A stretch of DNA of 43,750 nt from an uncultured Prochlorococcus sp. (lineage in GTDB: Bacteria > Cyanobacteriota > Cyanobacteriia > PCC-6307 > Cyanobiaceae): assembly GCA_902550485.1 (NCBI GenBank), contig CACCZQ010000006.1, positions 1 through 43,750 on the forward strand, read 5' to 3'. Below the pieces are notes generated by a model. That model saw nothing but the letters and a program-made list of their open reading frames with translations, was not told the DNA's origin and searched no databases. Numbering within the stretch: position 1 is the stretch's first letter; each line of letters opens with the position of its first letter. The translations under genes and the position numbers were made by a program. Below are positions 36,241 to 43,643 of this stretch, one piece after another.

Positions 36241-38982
36241 CTACTTAATATCATAATTTAATTTGTTGTTTTCTTCTAAAGAATTTAAAACTGATTTTGC
36301 TTTTTCTATAACTTCTTTTGGAACTCCTGCTAATTTAGCTGCTTCTATGCCATAGCTTTTATTTGAACCCCCTTTAACAATCCTGTGGCTAAAGATTAGC
36401 TGATCGTTATTTTGTTCTACTAAAACTTGAAAATTTTGTATATTCTTATTTGAATTTTTTAAATAATTCAGCTCATGATAGTGCGTAGCAAAAATAGTAT
36501 TACATTGAATTTTTTTTGCAAGATATTCACTTACTGACCAAGCTATTGAAAGTCCATCAAAAGTAGATGTCCCTCTGCCTATCTCATCAAGTAAAACTAG
36601 TGAGCTAGAAGTTGCCTGATTTAAAATTGATGCAGTTTCAGACATTTCTACCATAAATGTTGATTGTCCAGATGATTGATCATCAACTGCCCCAATTCTT
36701 GTGAAAATCCTATCTGCAATCTTGATTTCAGCATTATTAGCAGGGACAAAGCTACCAATTTGTGTGAGGATTTGTATTAAACCAAGTTGTCTTATGAAGC
36801 AACTTTTTCCGCTTGCATTAGGACCCGTTAATATAATTAATTTTTGATTATCCTCAAAAGAGATATCGTTTGCTACAAACTTTTTATCATTTAACAATTG
36901 CTCTACAATTGGATTTCTTCCTGCGATAATTTTTGTACTATTTTTTGTGATTGAATCATTTATTGGTATTAATGAAGGTTTTATAAAATTATTTTCTACT
37001 GCAGTAATTGATAAACCAAGTAGTGCATCAAGAGATGCTATGGATTTTGCAATTGATCTTATTTGTTTTGTTTTTTCAGCAACTATATTTCTTAATTCGC
37101 AGAAAATTTCATATTCTTTTGATGAAGCTCTGCTTTTTATTTGGAAAATCTTATTTTCTTTATTTTTAATTTCTGAAGTGATATACCTTTCTTCATTAGT
37201 AAGTGTTTGCCTTTTGATCCAATGTTGTGGAGCTAAATTAACTTTTGACTTATTAATAGAAATGTAATAACCAAAATTTTTATGAAATTGAATTTTTAGG
37301 TTTGAAATTTTGCTAATTTTTCTTTCCTTTGATTCCTCTTTATTTAGCCACTCAGAGTAATCATCCATTAAATTTCGTAAACCATCTAATATATTGTCAA
37401 CACCATCGTGGATCATGCCTCCTTCACTTATATTTAGAGGAGGATTTTTTACTAGCTTAAAACTTATAGTATCAGCTAATTCTAACAGTCCTTCATCAAT
37501 ATTTTTTAATTGATCAGTCCAATCTGGGAGATCATATTTAAAAAATTCAATTATGGATTTTAGTCTAGGCAATTTTTTTAAACCTTCAGCTATTGCAATT
37601 AAGTCTCTGGGACTTGCATGACCTGCACAAGCTCTACCTGCAAGTCTTTCTAAATCTCCCATTGCTCTAAGTAAATTTTGGGTATCTGTACGTAATTTTT
37701 TAGATTCAAAAAAGTTTGTAATTATATTTTGTCTTTTATAAATTTCATTAACGTTTAATAGTGGTGAATCTATCCACCTTCTTAAACACCTTGCACCCAT
37801 GCAGGTATAAGTCCTATCAATACTCCATAGTAGCGAACCTACATAGTTGTTTTCTCGTTGCGTATTTTTGATTTCTAAGTTTTTTTGAGTTTGATAATCA
37901 ATAATTAATTTGTTGTGACCATATTGGATTTGTGGAAAGTCTAATGAGATTTTTAAAGAAGAATCTTTATCTAAATTTGAAGGATTAATTTTTTCTAAAT
38001 AATTTAATAAACCTCCAAGTGATCTAGTTGCATTGTTTAAATTTTTAAGTCCTATTCCCTCTAGGGTTGCAATTTGGAAATAATTTTTTATTAGATAATT
38101 TGCTTCATTAATTCCAAAATTAGTCTCTTGAGAAACAGTATATGTAATTTGACTATTTCCTTTAATTAATAAATCTCTTATTGAATTGCTTCCTACAATG
38201 ATTTCTGAAGAATCTAATTTAATAATTTCATCAAATAGTTTTGACAGAGATTTGCCTTCTAAAGTTATTAATTCTCCTGTGCTTACATCAGCTTTTGATA
38301 TACCCCATTCATAAGATTCATCTGAGTTTTCTTCTGATAAGTAAATAGCAGTAATCCAATTATTTTTCTTTGCTATCAACATCCCCTCTTCAATTACAGT
38401 TCCAGGAGTAATTATTCTTGTTATTCCTCTTTTAATTGGAGTTCCATAATTTCCAGAACTTTTTTCTAATTGATCGCATATAACCACAGAATAATTTTTT
38501 TTAATTAAATCAGCACAGTATCTCTCCATTGCATGATGGGGAACCCCTGCCATAGGGATCTTACCAATCTCTTTGCCAGCATCTTTACTGGTAAGCGTTA
38601 TTTCTAAAAGGTTAGATATTAATACAGCGTCCTCAAAAAAACATTCAAAAAAATCTCCTAATCTATAAAGTAATAACCTATCTTTATTTTCTTCTTTTAG
38701 AGTTACATAATGCTTCATTACAGGAGTTAATTTCAGTTTTGAAACTGTTTTATAGCTATAAGATTCTTCATTGATGCAAACATTTTTGTTATTTGAAATT
38801 AAATCAGTCTTGAATTTATTTATTAAATTAGTTGAATTTTTTCTTTGTCTGGGTCTTTTTTGCGATTCTTTTTTTAAATCTTCCAAAGATAAATCTTCTG
38901 GAATTTTTGTTATTTCTTTTTGTTCATTATTATCATTACCAATCGCAAATAAATTCTTTTGAATTATCGTATCTTCTTGCAT
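36241..38982 (-). CDS. mutS: DNA mismatch repair protein MutS
   Basis: Mismatch-recognition ATPase. The mismatch-binding Phe-x-Glu motif is in [16 protein letters not shown] (F-F-E), with [19 protein letters not shown] next. The ABC-type ATPase shows Walker [37 protein letters not shown] and Walker [17 protein letters not shown], then THYHEL. It has 913 residues; the first ~80 ([43 protein letters not shown]) are a charged extension absent from E. coli MutS. No mutL is in the window. Confidence 0.97.
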
Positions 38983-39049
38983 ACTTTTTTAATTCCTAAA
39001 TAGATATTAGGTAGAAATTTTTTTTTTGCATTTAAAGTGGCTAAAGTAT

Positions 39050-39122
39050 GTAAATTTTCTCTAAAAATTATCATTTTCATGAGATTATAGTATTTATAAT
39101 ATTTGAAACCTAAGACTGAATT
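39050..39122 (+). promoter_or_regulatory. Candidate psbZ promoter
   Basis: A consensus TATAAT lies at 39095-39100, about 23 nt before the psbZ start, in a very AT-rich 140-bp gap between the divergent mutS and psbZ. No good -35 box is placed correctly. The call is by motif and position only. Confidence 0.4.
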
Positions 39123-39320
39123 ATGCAGGCTGTTAACTTTTTCTTCGTAAATGCTCTATTATTTGCTTCTTTAATTGCGGTAGTTGGAGTACCCGTTTTA
39201 TATGTGACTCAACCTTCTACTGAAGAAGGACAGCGAGAAAGTAGGAGAAAAATTTATTCTATTGCGGCTGTTTGGGTTGTTTTGGTTTTTGTTACAGGGA
39301 TAGTTTCTTCATTGGTTTGA
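39123..39320 (+). CDS. psbZ: Photosystem II protein PsbZ (Ycf9)
   Basis: A 65-residue thylakoid protein with two membrane helices, about residues 4-26 (VNFFFVNALLFASLIAVVGVPVLY) and 42-62 (IYSIAAVWVVLVFVTGIVSSL). These are joined by the hydrophilic loop VTQPSTEEGQRESRRK, a clear PsbZ pattern. It lies at the periphery of the PSII core and stabilises supercomplexes. It precedes ribH by about 50 bp, same direction. Confidence 0.97.
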   Translation: MQAVNFFFVNALLFASLIAVVGVPVLYVTQPSTEEGQRESRRKIYSIAAVWVVLVFVTGIVSSLV

Positions 39321-39369
39321 ACTTAATACCTTTTCGTGAGAGTCTATTAATATATCTAAGTAAAATTTA

Positions 39370-39846
39370 ATGGCTATTTTTGAGGGTTCTTTTACTAATG
39401 CCTCTACTTTAAAAGTTGGGATTGTAATAGCAAGATTTAATGATTTAATTACGAATAAAATTCTATCTGGTTGTCTTGATTGTTTAAAAAGACATGGTTT
39501 AGATACTTCAGAATTAAGCAATCAAGTAGATATAGTTTGGGTTCCAGGTTCATTCGAATTACCAATCGCAGCTAAAACCCTCATGAAAAAAAAGAGTTAT
39601 GATGTTGTAATTGCTCTTGGGGCTGTGATCCGTGGTGAAACTTCCCACTATGATGTAGTTATATCTGAGGCGAGTAAAGGTATTTCGCAAGTTTCAAATG
39701 AAAATAATGTTCCAATTATTTTTGGAGTTTTAACTACTGATACTATGCAGCAGGCTTTAGAAAGAGCAGGAATTAAAAATAATCTTGGTTGGAATTATGC
39801 TTTACAAGCAATTGAGATGGGATCCTTAATTAAAAATTTAAATTAA
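39370..39846 (+). CDS. ribH: 6,7-dimethyl-8-ribityllumazine synthase
   Basis: Penultimate enzyme of riboflavin synthesis. Substrate-binding motifs are [27 protein letters not shown] (with the catalytic His) and [17 protein letters not shown]. At 158 residues it is full length. It is the last core gene before the tRNA-Gly that anchors the integrated element. Confidence 0.97.
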
Positions 39847-39873
39847 TTGAAAAAAATTTAATTATTTTTATCA

Positions 39874-39904
39874 TTGATCCCTTCTTTGAGATAAAATAAA
39901 AATG
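39874..39904 (+). promoter_or_regulatory. Candidate tRNA-Gly promoter
   Basis: A TAAAAT box at 39892-39897 sits about 11 nt before the mature tRNA-Gly. A TTGATC at 39874-39879 is only 12 nt upstream of it, which is too close for a standard -35, so only the -10-like box is supported. Confidence 0.3.
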
Positions 39905-39908
39905 TTAT

Positions 39909-39980
39909 GCGGATGTAGCTCAGTGGTAGAGCATCTCCTTGCCAAGGAGAATGTCGAGAGTTCGAATCTCTTCATCCGCT
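39909..39980 (+). tRNA. tRNA-Gly (anticodon GCC)
   Basis: A complete cloverleaf of 72 nt. The acceptor stem GCGGATG pairs with CATCCGC, the D-arm is AGCTCAGTGGTAGAGC, the anticodon stem TCTCC/GGAGA encloses loop TTGCCAA with anticodon GCC, and the T-arm has loop TTCGAAT. The discriminator is T and no CCA is encoded. It has no disruption, so any integration has kept the gene intact. It is the likely attachment gene for the recombinase 140 bp downstream. Confidence 0.98.
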
Positions 39981-39990
39981 TCCCTAAATT

Positions 39991-40013
39991 CCTGTTACAG
40001 ACAGGGTTTTTTA
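39991..40013 (+). terminator. Rho-independent terminator after tRNA-Gly
   Basis: The inverted repeat CCTGT-TACAG-ACAGG is followed by GTTTTTTATT. The stem has three G-C pairs and is followed by six T, a compact intrinsic terminator placed 10 nt after the tRNA. Confidence 0.75.
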
Positions 40014-40047
40014 TTGGTTAGAGATATTTTCTAAATAAGTGTTTGTA

Positions 40048-40087
40048 AGTGCATAATATCGATTCTGCACTAATATATGCACTAATA
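40048..40087 (+). repeat. Clustered TGCAC repeats upstream of the recombinase
   Basis: The 10-mer TGCACTAATA occurs twice (40066-40075 and 40078-40087), and AGTGCATA (40048-40055) is the exact inverse of TATGCACT (40076-40083). This gives one inverted and two direct GTGCA/TGCAC sites in 40 bp between the tRNA terminator and the recombinase start. Such clusters are typical of recombinase-binding or autoregulatory sites. Confidence 0.6.
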
Positions 40088-40122
40088 GCACTTTTTCAAA
40101 TGGCAAGCAGTAACAAAGATTC

Positions 40123-41385
40123 ATGGGTTCAAGACTTAAGAAAGTTAATCTCACTAATAACGGCCGAGGATGGCGTGTAAACGGCGAAGGATCGGGAAGA
40201 ACTAAAGTTATTTACGTTATTAACGAGGGTAAAGGGGCTGCAAATAATAGGCTTACAAAGACAATAAATATTAATTGGGAAAAAGCTAATATCGCAAAAA
40301 TTAATGGGGCTATTGATTTTATAAAACCACTCGTAGTTAATAAGAAAGTTTCACTATCTGATGCTGCTAAAAGATGGGAAGCTCAAAATTTACCCCAAGA
40401 GAAAAAAGTATCTGATGTTATTTGGGATGAAGTACTAATCGCATTTGAAAAAACTAAAGAAGGTCTAAGCTCTAAAACTGGTATGGAGTGGACTAGAAGA
40501 GTTGATCGATTTAAAGAAGTAATGAATAAAAAACCTACACCAACTTCGGGAGAAGATTTTGTCAAAAAATACGCTAAAAATTTCTTTGATGATATTCCCT
40601 CGGGTTCAGATTCCAGAAAAAGATATTTAGATTCCGTTTATAAAATTCTTGAATATGGAGTCAATCGCCACGGCATGAGTGAAAGATGGCTTCCACCTCA
40701 TAAAGACTTAGCTAAAGAACTGGTCGGAGATAATACAAGAACTACAGAAGATACAGTAACTCCACCAATATCTGACGCTGATCTAGCAATATTATTAGAC
40801 ACACTAAAAGAAATAAATCCTAAGTTATATTTAGCGGTCGGATTGATCGCATTGCATGGATTAAGACTTTCAGAATTAGCCACTCTTGAAGTAAGAGATG
40901 GAAATAAATTATTTGTCGGAAGTATCAAGAAAAACGTCCAGAATAAGGGCAAAAAGAATCCACCACGTAGAGTATTTGCACTAGATATTTTGGGTAGAGA
41001 AGGGCTAGGAAATGAGCTTGTAGCTCAATATAAAAGCGGCTTAGTTGGACTTCCAGAAGCGATCGAAAATCAAATTAAGATGGTTCAAAAAAAGAGAAGA
41101 TTTGCGGATGCTGGTGCAACATTAACCCAACAATTAAATAGAACAATTATTTGGAAACAGATAGCTAAAAAGACTAAAGGATTAACTCCTTATAGCCTTC
41201 GTCATAGATGGGCTTGGATAGCTCACAAAGCTAGCGATAATCCAATATCAATAAGAGATGCCGCCGAAGCAATGGGTCATACACCCGCAACACACTTAAA
41301 TTTTTACGGCCGTTGGACTAGTGAAGCATCTATCGAAGCTGCTGTCGCTCGACATCAAAAAAATGCCTTTGAAGTAGGTGTCTAA
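40123..41385 (+). CDS. Tyrosine recombinase/integrase
   Basis: A 420-residue site-specific recombinase of the phage-integrase superfamily, likely driving integration and excision at the adjacent tRNA. The C-terminal catalytic domain shows R248 in HGLRLSELATL, a lysine-rich beta-hairpin candidate at K275-K278, R360 in the box II segment YSLRHRW, H386 in MGHTPATH, and the nucleophile Y395 in NFYGRW. Box II has Tyr (Y357) where many integrases have His (HxxR). The N-terminal ~230 residues form arm- and core-binding domains (SDAAKRWEAQN, WTRRVDRFKEVM). The start is the first ATG after an in-frame stop at 40111, with no strong ribosome-binding site. It runs in the same direction as tRNA-Gly. Confidence 0.93.
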   Translation: MGSRLKKVNLTNNGRGWRVNGEGSGRTKVIYVINEGKGAANNRLTKTININWEKANIAKINGAIDFIKPLVVNKKVSLSDAAKRWEAQNLPQEKKVSDVIWDEVLIAFEKTKEGLSSKTGMEWTRRVDRFKEVMNKKPTPTSGEDFVKKYAKNFFDDIPSGSDSRKRYLDSVYKILEYGVNRHGMSERWLPPHKDLAKELVGDNTRTTEDTVTPPISDADLAILLDTLKEINPKLYLAVGLIALHGLRLSELATLEVRDGNKLFVGSIKKNVQNKGKKNPPRRVFALDILGREGLGNELVAQYKSGLVGLPEAIENQIKMVQKKRRFADAGATLTQQLNRTIIWKQIAKKTKGLTPYSLRHRWAWIAHKASDNPISIRDAAEAMGHTPATHLNFYGRWTSEASIEAAVARHQKNAFEVGV

Positions 41386-41390
41386 TTTAA

Positions 41391-41435
41391 GATTGACAGT
41401 CGATCTACAATAAGGGGCAATTAGCTCCTTTTAAA
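41391..41435 (+). promoter_or_regulatory. Leader cassette copy 1: palindrome, -10 box and hairpin
   Basis: Reads GATTGACAGTCGATC (imperfect 15-bp palindrome, 41391-41405), then TACAAT (41406-41411, -10-like), then the hairpin AAGGGGC-AATTA-GCTCCTT (41412-41430, stem of 7 with one G-T pair) and a short T run. The TTG start codon begins 5 nt after the hairpin. It is about 38 of 41 positions identical to the copy at 42988. The hairpin could also end integrase transcripts; the 5' arm is SD-like and the 3' arm anti-SD-like. Confidence 0.7.
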
Positions 41436-42032
41436 TTGAAATTTTTTCTAACAATAATAATTTCTATTTTTATTTTTCCTCAATATTTATTATCAAGCCA
41501 ATTTGGGTTAAATATGGGAGAGACAAAGGAAGATATATCTAATAAAGGTGTTTCTCTCAAAGATGATGGAAATTATTGGTATACGACAAAGGATCTTCCA
41601 AAAGGCAACTCTAAATTAACTAAATATGATTTATTAATAACCCCAAAATCAGGCCTTTGTAAAATTTACAGTTATACAGATGTTATTTATTCAAATTCCT
41701 TTGGAAATCAACTCAAAAGCGAATTTGAATTTTTTGAAAAAGCATTAACAAAAAAATATGGCGACAATGAAAAATATGATTTTGTTCAAAGTGGCAGTAT
41801 CTGGAATGATACTCAATATTGGATGATGGGATTATTAAAAAAAGAAAGATACCTTACAACTTTTTGGAGCAAAAAAAATGGCTCAAATCTCCCTCAAAAT
41901 AATATTAAAAACATAACAGTTAACGCATCCGCAACTAGTAATGATGAAGGATACATCTATATAGCTTATGAGTTTTTAAATATCAAAGAATGTATGTCTG
42001 AATATAGAGAGTCTCAAACAGATAATATCTAA
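41436..42032 (+). CDS. Secreted hypothetical protein, element cargo
   Basis: A 198-residue protein with an N-terminal signal peptide (hydrophobic FFLTIIISIFIFPQYLLSS, likely cleaved near residue 21). The mature part begins FGLNMGETKEDISNKG, a phrase like the N-terminus of several small periplasmic proteins of unknown function. A single pair of cysteines (in GLCKIY and ECMSE) could form a disulfide. No enzymatic motif is seen. The start is TTG at 41436, chosen because it sits at the same 5-nt distance from the leader hairpin as the ATG of the gene at 43032. It follows the recombinase and is 7 bp upstream of the next gene. Confidence 0.75.
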   Translation: MKFFLTIIISIFIFPQYLLSSQFGLNMGETKEDISNKGVSLKDDGNYWYTTKDLPKGNSKLTKYDLLITPKSGLCKIYSYTDVIYSNSFGNQLKSEFEFFEKALTKKYGDNEKYDFVQSGSIWNDTQYWMMGLLKKERYLTTFWSKKNGSNLPQNNIKNITVNASATSNDEGYIYIAYEFLNIKECMSEYRESQTDNI

Positions 42033-42039
42033 AAATTAA

Positions 42040-42924
42040 ATGAAACGCTTAATACTCCCACTACTAGCTGCTCTCGCTTTACCTACTGCTATTAATGCAA
42101 ATATACAAATCAAAGATAGATTAGATACTCCTCATATTAATTTTATTAGTCAAAGAGCAATAGCCAATGTTGACTTAGAATTTGATGAACCTTCAGGTTT
42201 AGTTTTTGATGTAGATAAAAAGTCTCTTTGGACGGTTAGTGACGACACTTCCAAATTGTTTAATTTAGATCTTAAAGGAGATATAAATCGAAAAAAAACA
42301 ATTAATTCTCCTCTCGATGAAAGTGAAGGTATTACCTTGAATAAAAAACGTAATCTTTTAGTAGCTGTAATAGAATCTCAATATCCTAAAGTAGTTACTG
42401 TTGAATTGGATAGCGGAAAACATAAAAACTACTTATTAAGTGAAATGAAGAATTTTTCACTTATAAAAAAATTCTTTAAATTGCAGACCTTAAATAAAAG
42501 TCATGGACTAGAGGCAATAACTTTTTTACCAGAAGAGGAAACATATATTGTTGCAAAACAAGATTTTCCAGCAATGCTAATAAAAATTAACGGTGAATTA
42601 AATAAAATACTTAGTTTTAGAAAAATTGAAAAGTTCTCCAACTATGAAAATCAATTAAATAGTTTTGATATTAGTGGGCTTGATTATGATGTATTAAATA
42701 AAAAAATCTGGATATTGAGTGGTTTAAATAGGGAAATCTATATTTATGATTGGGATTCAAATACAATTATTAATCAATATAAAATCCCCTACATGAATTG
42801 GGCTGGAGGAATAGCAGTAAATTATGATGATAATAAATTTCACATAGTTACTGATGTAGATAATGAAGAGCCAATGTTATTTGTTCATTCTTATAACCCA
42901 GAATTAATATATCAAAATAAATAA
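42040..42924 (+). CDS. SdiA-regulated-like secreted beta-propeller protein
   Basis: A 294-residue exported protein. The signal peptide MKRLILPLLAALALPTAINA is followed by a domain resembling the SdiA-regulated family (PF06977-type, beta-propeller): EFDEPSGLVFDVDKKSLWTVSDDTSKLFNLDLKG, LDESEGITLNKKRNLLVAV, SHGLEAITFLPEEETYIVAKQD, NSFDISGLDYDVLNKKIWILSGLNREIYIYDWD and NWAGGIAVNYDDNKFHIVTDVDNEEP. These repeats are phytase/esterase-like blades, but catalytic residues are not assignable. It lies 7 bp after the preceding cargo gene and may share its transcript. Confidence 0.8.
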   Translation: MKRLILPLLAALALPTAINANIQIKDRLDTPHINFISQRAIANVDLEFDEPSGLVFDVDKKSLWTVSDDTSKLFNLDLKGDINRKKTINSPLDESEGITLNKKRNLLVAVIESQYPKVVTVELDSGKHKNYLLSEMKNFSLIKKFFKLQTLNKSHGLEAITFLPEEETYIVAKQDFPAMLIKINGELNKILSFRKIEKFSNYENQLNSFDISGLDYDVLNKKIWILSGLNREIYIYDWDSNTIINQYKIPYMNWAGGIAVNYDDNKFHIVTDVDNEEPMLFVHSYNPELIYQNK

Positions 42925-42952
42925 AAATTTTTACAAAATAAGGAAAGCTTAA

Positions 42953-43060
42953 ATGAAACGCTTACTACTTGCAGCTAAATTAAATACGATTGACAGTCAA
43001 TCTAAAATAAGGGGCAATTGCTCCTTTTTTAATGGATGGAACTGTATATGTCTTAACTAA
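42953..43060 (+). pseudogene. Truncated signal-peptide gene start
   Basis: A short frame of 35 codons begins with ATG AAA CGC TTA CTA CTT GCA GCT, nearly the same as the start of the gene at 42040 (16 identical bases, TTAAATGAAACGCTTA, then diverging). A strong ribosome-binding site AAGGAAAG lies about 8 nt upstream. After eight or so residues it runs straight into the second leader copy and ends by chance inside the next gene. It looks like a decapitated or interrupted copy of a secreted-protein gene. It may still be translated as a leader peptide. Confidence 0.55.
42988..43031 (+). promoter_or_regulatory. Leader cassette copy 2: palindrome, -10 box and hairpin
   Basis: Reads GATTGACAGTCAATC (perfect 7+1+7 palindrome, 42988-43002), TAAAAT (43003-43008), then AAGGGGC-AATT-GCTCCTT (43009-43026) followed by four further T and the ATG at 43032, again exactly 5 nt after the hairpin. 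Differences from copy 1 are G to A in the palindrome, C to A in the -10-like box, and one A missing from the loop. Confidence 0.7.
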
Positions 43061-43643
43061 TCCAGCGATGCCAGATTTAGTAAAGATTGGGAAAACTACT
43101 CGAGATGTATCTTTAAGACTTTCAGATTTATATACAACAGGCGTTCCATTACCTTTTGAATGTGAATATGCTGCAAAAGTTAAAGATGTAGATCAAACTG
43201 AAAAAGCTTTTCATCTTGGGTTTAAAAAAGACAGAGTGAATATAAAGAGAGAATTTTTTAAAATCGATCCTGAGCAAGCTATAGCTTTTTTAAAATTACT
43301 CGAAATAGAAGATATGACTCCTTCAGTGAGAAAAGAAGCTGATAGTGTCGATATTGAAGCTAAAGCATCGGTTGAAAAATTTAAGAAGGATAGATTACCA
43401 GTCGTTAACTATTTTGAGATGGGATTAGAGATTGGAGATGTATTTACTTACGAACTGGATCAAAATATAACTTGCACTGTAAAAAATCAGAGGAAAGTTG
43501 AGTATCAAGGTGAGGATTATTATTTAAGTGGCTTAACTCAAAAATTAATGAACACGGATAGCAGAATTAGAGGTAGTAAATATTGGTATCACAAGGGAAG
43601 GAATCTTGTTGAAATTTATAATGCCACATACGCTAAGGATTAG
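43032..43643 (+). CDS. T5orf172/GIY-YIG domain protein
   Basis: A 203-residue protein whose first ~85 residues form a T5orf172-type GIY-YIG domain. These include VYVLTNPAMPDLVKIGKTTRDVSLRLSDL (Y6, KIGKT at 19-22, R24 and R29), TGVPLPFECEYAAKVKD, and the family glutamate in REFFKIDPEQAI (E74). Such domains occur in phage and mobile-element proteins and may be nucleases, but activity is not proven here. The C-terminal half (MGLEIGDVFTYELDQNITCTVKNQRKVEYQGEDYYLSGLTQKLM) resembles DNA-linked PLD/GIY-YIG accessory regions seen in restriction-like proteins, a tentative parallel. The start is the ATG just after leader copy 2. Confidence 0.8.
   Translation: MDGTVYVLTNPAMPDLVKIGKTTRDVSLRLSDLYTTGVPLPFECEYAAKVKDVDQTEKAFHLGFKKDRVNIKREFFKIDPEQAIAFLKLLEIEDMTPSVRKEADSVDIEAKASVEKFKKDRLPVVNYFEMGLEIGDVFTYELDQNITCTVKNQRKVEYQGEDYYLSGLTQKLMNTDSRIRGSKYWYHKGRNLVEIYNATYAKD

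Follow-up and report, generated by a model that had tools for sequence, protein, structure and literature searches.

A promoter-like leader with a terminator-like hairpin, found throughout Prochlorococcus, precedes unrelated genes

Two unrelated genes in a 43,750-nucleotide stretch of an uncultured Prochlorococcus sp. (contig CACCZQ010000006.1, hereafter the window) are preceded by almost the same short sequence, which raises the questions of what kind of element this is and how it came to stand before such different genes. The initial annotation described near-identical leaders placed 5 nt before two start codons; both copies, at 41391 and 42988, were confirmed and were also detected as repeat family D1 in the window, and the gap between hairpin and start codon is 5 bases in copy 1 and copy 2 alike. 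The features of the region are the following:

40123..41385, plus strand: tyrosine recombinase gene, with its stop 5 bases before copy 1
41391..41405, plus strand: copy 1, 15-bp dyad GATTGACAGTCGATC (core, putative operator), with one T/G mismatch, the search pattern accounting for part of its apparent conservation
41406..41411, plus strand: copy 1, TACAAT, -10-like box (TAnnnT)
41412..41430, plus strand: copy 1, class A hairpin AAGGGGC-AATTA-GCTCCTT, terminator-like, with a short T run behind
41436, plus strand: copy 1, start codon TTG, 43 bases past the first T of the core
41436..42032, plus strand: cargo gene 1, 198 aa, TTG start, no Pfam match, signal-peptide-like N-terminus by eye
42040..42924, plus strand: gene between both leaders, SdiA-regulated domain, recurrent signal peptide MKRLILPLLAALALPTAINA
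42988..43002, plus strand: copy 2, dyad GATTGACAGTCAATC, 15-bp perfect palindrome, putative operator
43003..43008, plus strand: copy 2, TAAAAT, -10-like box
43009..43026, plus strand: copy 2, class A hairpin AAGGGGC-AATT-GCTCCTT with a 4-base loop, then a T run
43032, plus strand: copy 2, start codon ATG
43032..43643, plus strand: cargo gene 2, T5orf172-domain protein, matching PADLOC PDC-S57, candidate phage defence

Across the first 38 bases the two copies are distinguished by two substitutions and by a loop base that one of them lacks, and the folding of both beats 200 of 200 dinucleotide shuffles (z of -4.09 for copy 1 and -4.76 for copy 2). The 15-bp palindrome reported for them is perfect in copy 2 only; that of copy 1 is imperfect, as are those of most relatives (GTCGATC). 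We infer the TTG start of copy 1, family members most often having their start at offset +43. The cargo proteins are unrelated, as had been stated, the first having no Pfam match and the second being a T5orf172 protein. The tRNA-Gly followed by the tyrosine recombinase gene at 39909-41385 likely marks the edge of an integrated island, and the same edge is observed, with other cargo behind it, in a relative (L342).

Both leaders of the window are members of a genus-wide family. The genome of the window (0.85 Mb, 53% complete) contains seven copies, with none for the reversed-pattern control, and the expectation that Prochlorococcus genomes would hold many more was borne out, since a match at ≤2 mismatches was identified in 173 of 200 genomes of the genus (the window's included), the control being 0 in all rows. 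Among 300 genomes drawn from the whole family (≤3 mismatches), matches were found in 23 of 24 genomes of the same genus and in 3 of 276 of other genera, with one match of the reversed control (G377); of the three other-genus matches, one is a full leader followed by ATG (L196), one looks partial (L195) and one may be due to chance (L208). A further search gave at least 116 stretches and, among the 80 matches listed, the records bear the names Prochlorococcus or uncultured Synechococcaceae. When only the core TTGACAGTCGATC followed by TAnnnT was required (≤1 mismatch), sites were present in 60 of 61 genomes, with 0 for the reversed control, and amounted to 0 to 22 per genome (median 9 among 60 relatives); at ≤3 mismatches the control was no longer clean, with 3 to 11 matches per strand in 8 genomes. 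Clustering of the sites was seen in four genomes, in which 6, 8, 4 and 6 neighbours lie <25 kb apart versus random means of 1.21, 2.44, 0.59 and 0.78, respectively, and these clusters are presumably the known genomic islands. A phage origin of the leader was considered and rejected: the 44-base query, a short one and weak in such a comparison, had no match at E 0.01 among 50,697 phage records, and a single stretch matched in viral contigs.

For the anatomy of the family, 314 raw matches were reduced to 237 distinct copies with enough flank by removing 77 that repeated the same 90 bases or lay near a locus end; near relatives are counted apart among the 237, so the copies are not independent. 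With offset 0 set at the first T of TTGACAG, the element measures about 44 bp, conservation jumping at -2 and dropping at about +41. The conservation of the core is inflated, as the core was in the search pattern, whereas positions 26-41, outside that pattern, are still 73-93% conserved, and a T run occupies offsets 36-41 (77-92% T). An ATG ORF (≥40 aa) starts at +36 to +60 in 129 of the 237 copies (control mean 13.15, maximum 23), in 119 of these at +40 to +46, and a same-strand ORF (≥60 aa) stops ≤60 nt upstream in 123 of the 237 (control 19.4), in 62 at ≤10 nt; the sites therefore fill narrow gaps from one gene's stop to the following gene's start. Neighbouring sites <3 kb apart are mostly on the same strand (157, versus 18 on opposite strands). 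The ORFs behind the leaders code mostly for small proteins (median 94 aa), the largest cargo family being DUF3764 and the third DUF3804, and three of the other representatives had no Pfam match at 0.01. Candidate defence genes are also among the cargo, namely the T5orf172 protein with its PDC-S57 match and an Mrr-like nuclease in L342.

Two leaders fused head to head within about 56 bases, and so forming a long inverted repeat, were observed in L096 (from 3224) and in G136:C7:11224-11279, and are possibly divergent promoters.

Upstream and downstream genes mix freely at the leader. Clustering the flanks of the 237 copies by similarity gave 101 families upstream and 115 downstream. Members of one upstream family (41 copies) are followed by 35 different downstream families, and one downstream family (29 copies) has 17 different upstream families before it; stable combinations also exist, as in a downstream family of 17 copies with only 2 upstream families. 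The clearest case is the window itself when compared with L342 (genome G135), whose recombinase is 98% identical to that of the window: the two stretches align at 96% over 2954 columns (about 2.95 kb, window 38507-41446), spanning tRNA-Gly, recombinase and leader. By eye, the shared sequence stops at the T run of the leader, behind which L342 carries a Mrr-type restriction endonuclease gene. The leaders of L342 and the window differ at offset 15 alone, and so the exchange could also have occurred there. In another pair (L082 and L065), the upstream flank and TTGACAGTCGATCTA are common and the sequences then diverge. Along the leader, a linkage test associates offsets -12 to 5 with the upstream family and offsets 36 to 41 (also 16, 18 and 20) with the downstream one; an abrupt change between the two sets was not seen, and thus the crossover is not localised. 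That the leader, rather than a gene, was duplicated, and that it may serve as a seam for gene capture, were both proposals of the initial annotation; the first agrees with the many copies, the near-fixed distance to the start codon and the neighbours that change at the leader, and the second gains from this same change of neighbours and from the recombinase genes often found directly upstream.

Signal peptide MKRLLLPLLAALALPTAVNA (42040-42099 in the window, and many other loci) heads 60 ORFs with 34 different mature starts, in loci that overlap and with ORFs that may repeat, as if it were shuffled as a unit. A broken start of this signal peptide is found directly 5' of copy 2 (42953-42987), and the upstream family of 41 copies is of the same kind.

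The core-only search revealed a second hairpin class, B (AGAGGGATAAAACCCTCTTTTTT), and two unrelated terminator-like hairpins occupy the same slot, between the -10-like box and the start codon. The 5' arm begins at offset 19 in class A and at 19 (57 sites), 20 (36) or 21 (2) in class B, and start offsets 42-44 are common to both classes. As in Rho-independent terminators, a GC-rich stem is followed by a T run, and an MFE of -4 or below is reached by fractions of 0.70 in class A and 0.60 in class B, against 0.05 of shuffled sequences. Among 482 sites in the collected loci, 307 belong to class A, 110 to class B, 1 fits both patterns and 64 neither, these shares being biased towards A. The ORFs behind 315 of the 482 sites form 92 families (57 single), and, of the 30 largest downstream families, 12 include both hairpin classes, some by one copy and with fuzzy patterns. 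To escape the bias of the first search pattern, sites were fetched through the core and not the hairpin from ten genomes (G091 and G024 in part), giving 84 distinct sites: a hairpin was identified in 62 (against 14.3% of random positions), an ORF start at +25 to +62 in 53 (against 15.3% of random positions) and both in 41, whereas a hairpin was not found in 22 and an ORF start not in 31. A hairpin with ≥5 T in the next 8 bases was seen in only 21, a count that is rough, like the arm coordinates, as the hairpin rule often stretches the helix into the T run. In the five genomes with a complete list of cores (G015, G182 and G049 being left out), in which lists were matched by eye, the core (≤3 mismatches) lies directly upstream of 12 of 12 class A hairpins and 14 of 24 class B hairpins, two class B places being read on both strands; the other 10 of the 24 class B matches are hairpins without the core.

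The initial annotation had also expected stem pairing to be preserved by compensatory changes, and this was not supported: double changes number 15 observed versus 15.0 expected in class A and 4 versus 2.5 in class B. Covariation being absent within each class, it is the recurrence of two unrelated versions that supports the hairpins. Neither of the features looked for in a structured RNA element (riboswitch or attenuator), compensatory changes and a match to a described family, was found. Rfam gave six matches in 12 loci, none at a leader; they comprise three tRNAs, two glutamine-II riboswitches and one 6S RNA, and as none proved to be the sequence behind the core, the other right-hand sequences were not accounted for as known small RNAs. 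Three such sequences recur behind the core without a class A or B hairpin (one in L197, L282 and L291, one in L072, L083 and L126, and one in L156, L191, L315, L409, L410, L416 and L417) and are possibly unannotated small RNAs or gene remnants.

Upstream of the hairpin, TAnnnT occupies offsets 13-18. We selected 46 sites by the 13-base core that belong to neither A nor B, and T is present at offset 18 in 27 of them, while offsets 15, 16, 17 and 19 have T in 6, 3, 7 and 12; this excess has p 0.0007, assuming 34.5% T. TAnnnT is thus kept independently of the neighbouring sequence, as would be expected of a sigma70-type promoter recognised by its -10 box only. A related site was identified before an orthologous gene, coding for an 85-aa protein of unknown function, of which one example is:

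L333 954-1252, minus strand: small gene, function unknown, preceded by a promoter-like site (TTGACAGTCAATTTAAAAT) that is conserved

In 30 of 30 loci a site at ≤2 changes from TTGACAGTCAATTTAAAAT precedes the GTG start of this gene, these being the best 30 of the 56 genomes with a match, among 61 (weaker matches elsewhere, as in G022, are outside the count), and in the five loci compared the neighbouring ORFs of the gene agree. Behind the TTGACAGTCAATTTAAAAT-like site a comparable hairpin was not seen by eye in the 30 loci. The presence of a similar dyad and TAAAAT before an orthologous gene argues that dyad and -10 box are an old promoter and not a recombination site alone, and the site of the L333 gene is a possible ancestor of the leader. 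The position of the dyad directly upstream of the -10 box suggests a putative repressor or MerR-like site. A phage MarR site was tried and discarded, the accessible part of PMC9692554 holding no comparable motif. The operator and promoter that the initial annotation proposed are favoured by geometry and conservation, which is support from sequence and not from experiment.

Recombinase genes deserve separate consideration, since their ends are a favoured place for the core. Among the 30 best-matching recombinase loci, taken by the longest ORF (which in L235 is not the recombinase), the core lies directly behind 2, the window's and a near-twin. We then fetched 60 further, weaker recombinase places, chosen for a long open frame from part of the places listed, and in 18 of the 60 the core (≤2 mismatches) is on the same strand ≤150 nt behind the recombinase stop, about 16-17 of these within 11 nt (L387, at 77 nt, is an exception). 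In L402 and L413 the recombinase frame runs through the core and ends inside it, which brings the total to 20 of 60. No core was found on the opposite strand (≤400 nt), upstream (≤400 nt) or with the reversed pattern, and only 5 of 96 other ORFs (≥80 aa, spurious ORFs included) in the same stretches end at a core. The 60 recombinases and the window's form 16 clusters at 60% identity, 7 of which (the window's included) have a core-ending member, and a tyrosine recombinase cluster (L407-L411, L413 and L415-L417) has the core at the end in 9 of 9, with several different sequences behind. The window's recombinase as sole partner of the leader was discarded, as other recombinase families also end at the core. 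These counts strengthen the earlier idea of a recombination seam, and the placement is compatible with a recombination site, but also with islands whose first cargo gene comes, leader included, next after the recombinase.

We hypothesize, at about even odds and from sequence analysis, that the element is a shuffled, self-insulating promoter leader. From 5' to 3' it would consist of the 15-bp dyad acting as operator, the -10 box TAnnnT, a short GC-rich hairpin with its T run, and the start codon. Transcription usually starts about 7 bases past the -10 box, which would put the start at about offset 25 and, for class A and class B hairpins alike, inside the loop. The leader's own mRNA would begin with the loop and the 3' arm and could not form the hairpin, while read-through transcripts from the upstream gene would carry both arms and would terminate within the T run, just short of the following start codon. 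As own RNA would start and read-through RNA would stop, each leader would end the transcript of the previous gene and begin that of its own, and, with stop and start self-contained, genes would be exchangeable behind it without altering their neighbours. Translation without an obvious Shine-Dalgarno sequence would be implied, and candidate routes of exchange are homologous recombination, microhomology or a recombinase. The own transcripts are predicted to be unstructured, with mean energies of -0.30 (class A) and -0.40 kcal/mol (class B) versus -5.75 and -6.96 kcal/mol for read-through. In the window, the predicted 35-base own transcript has 0.0 kcal/mol for copy 1 and -2.8 kcal/mol for copy 2; the latter would not be fully unstructured, which counts against the promoter reading. 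So do the cores behind recombinase genes, which could be primarily recombination sites, the sampled sites at which hairpin or ORF start is absent, the small number of sampled hairpins followed by ≥5 T, the lack of covariation in either hairpin class and the class B hairpins that lack the core.

The core could instead be first of all a recombination site, at which island tyrosine recombinases exchange single-gene units in a layout resembling integrase, attI and cassettes, its promoter look being secondary. We regard this as possible, if doubtful. The free mixing of neighbouring genes, the tandem same-strand arrays, the divergence of L082 and L065 behind a common flank and TTGACAGTCGATCTA, and the share of recombinase genes ending at the core relative to other ORFs, complete in one cluster, would all be accounted for. 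However, that one cluster supplies nine of the 20 core-ending recombinases, just 2 of the 30 best-matching loci have the core directly behind, and the first cargo gene of an island would bring a leader behind the recombinase anyway; moreover, one near-invariant core would have to serve recombinases <60% identical to each other and be joined to about 100 other upstream families, linkage along the leader has no sharp switch, the consensus lacks attC core boxes, and a core-like site is kept before an orthologous gene in all 30 loci. A combination of both ideas, a promoter-bearing cassette system unrelated to integrons, in which the core would be a seam for many island recombinases as well as a regulated promoter, and a captured gene would be at once expressed, insulated and under one genus-wide regulator, seems to us rather unlikely.

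Numerous near-identical copies with hairpins would also be expected of a short repeat of the REP or MITE kind, whether selfish or passive, with a terminator, spreading into gene gaps with no role in expression; this is improbable, as such a repeat would account poorly for the near-fixed distance to the start codon, the same-strand orientation, a number as low as about 9 copies per genome and the related site before an orthologous gene. We consider similarly improbable the riboregulator of the initial annotation, with pairing SD-like and anti-SD-like arms, in which transcription would start upstream and the hairpin, within the gene's own mRNA, would control translation or attenuation. The hairpin does abut the gene at a near-constant distance from the start codon, and its 5' arm AAGGGG is vaguely SD-like, but the -10-like box directly 5' of the hairpin predicts starts in the loop, and hence an RNA that should lack the 5' arm, a second and unrelated hairpin occupies the slot, covariation is absent and the sole Rfam match in the window is a tRNA.

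Read as a self-insulating promoter leader, the element resembles several known systems. Mobile promoters, and the horizontal transfer of regulatory sequences, are a known concept in bacteria, and like them the leader is a short promoter-bearing sequence before unrelated genes, as seen in the window (copies 1 and 2) and in the seven copies of its genome. A gene with the promoter in one genome and without it in relatives was also found, in one case: a relative of the window's T5orf172 gene, in L054 and L160, which represent one and the same place, lacks the leader. In contrast to mobile promoters, the leader joins a promoter-like part to a terminator-like hairpin and occurs almost exclusively in one genus. 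Integron cassettes, with attI and attC sites, are alike in their same-strand arrays, in a shared short structured sequence and in the recombinase genes that often end at the core; they differ in that the leader stands before a gene at a near-fixed distance, in that one core accompanies many divergent recombinases, and in the attC core boxes RYYYAAC and GTTRRRY, which direct reading of the leader consensus did not reveal. The GC-rich stem and T run, and the class B-like hairpins that also occur without the core, recall Rho-independent terminators, from which the leader differs in that its hairpin is flanked by a -10-like box on one side and by the following gene's start codon on the other. Tycheposons are tRNA-targeted island elements of Prochlorococcus, and share with our case the window's recombinase behind tRNA-Gly and the leaders often behind recombinase genes, whereas the leader is a small element within islands. 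Yfr6-type 5' UTRs, of which about 40 nt are common to several genes of Prochlorococcus and relatives, also form a shared 5' sequence of this length; as described in the accessible part of the report (PMC1242208), the cluster comprises nine sequences from MED4, SS120, MIT 9313 and WH 8102, several of which encode similar peptides, a description that sets it apart from the leader. Among the titles and abstract openings searched we found no description of the leader, and an earlier one may exist.

Differences among Prochlorococcus in niche and in phage are generally attributed to island genes. To our knowledge, how newly arrived island genes come to be expressed remains unclear, and a common leader with a built-in stop would explain it, as acquired genes may have their own expression wherever they land. 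The leader would also be a simple marker for cargo genes, including small unannotated ones, its sites would define a candidate regulon and, lying behind many recombinase genes, it would offer a handle on the exchange of island cargo.
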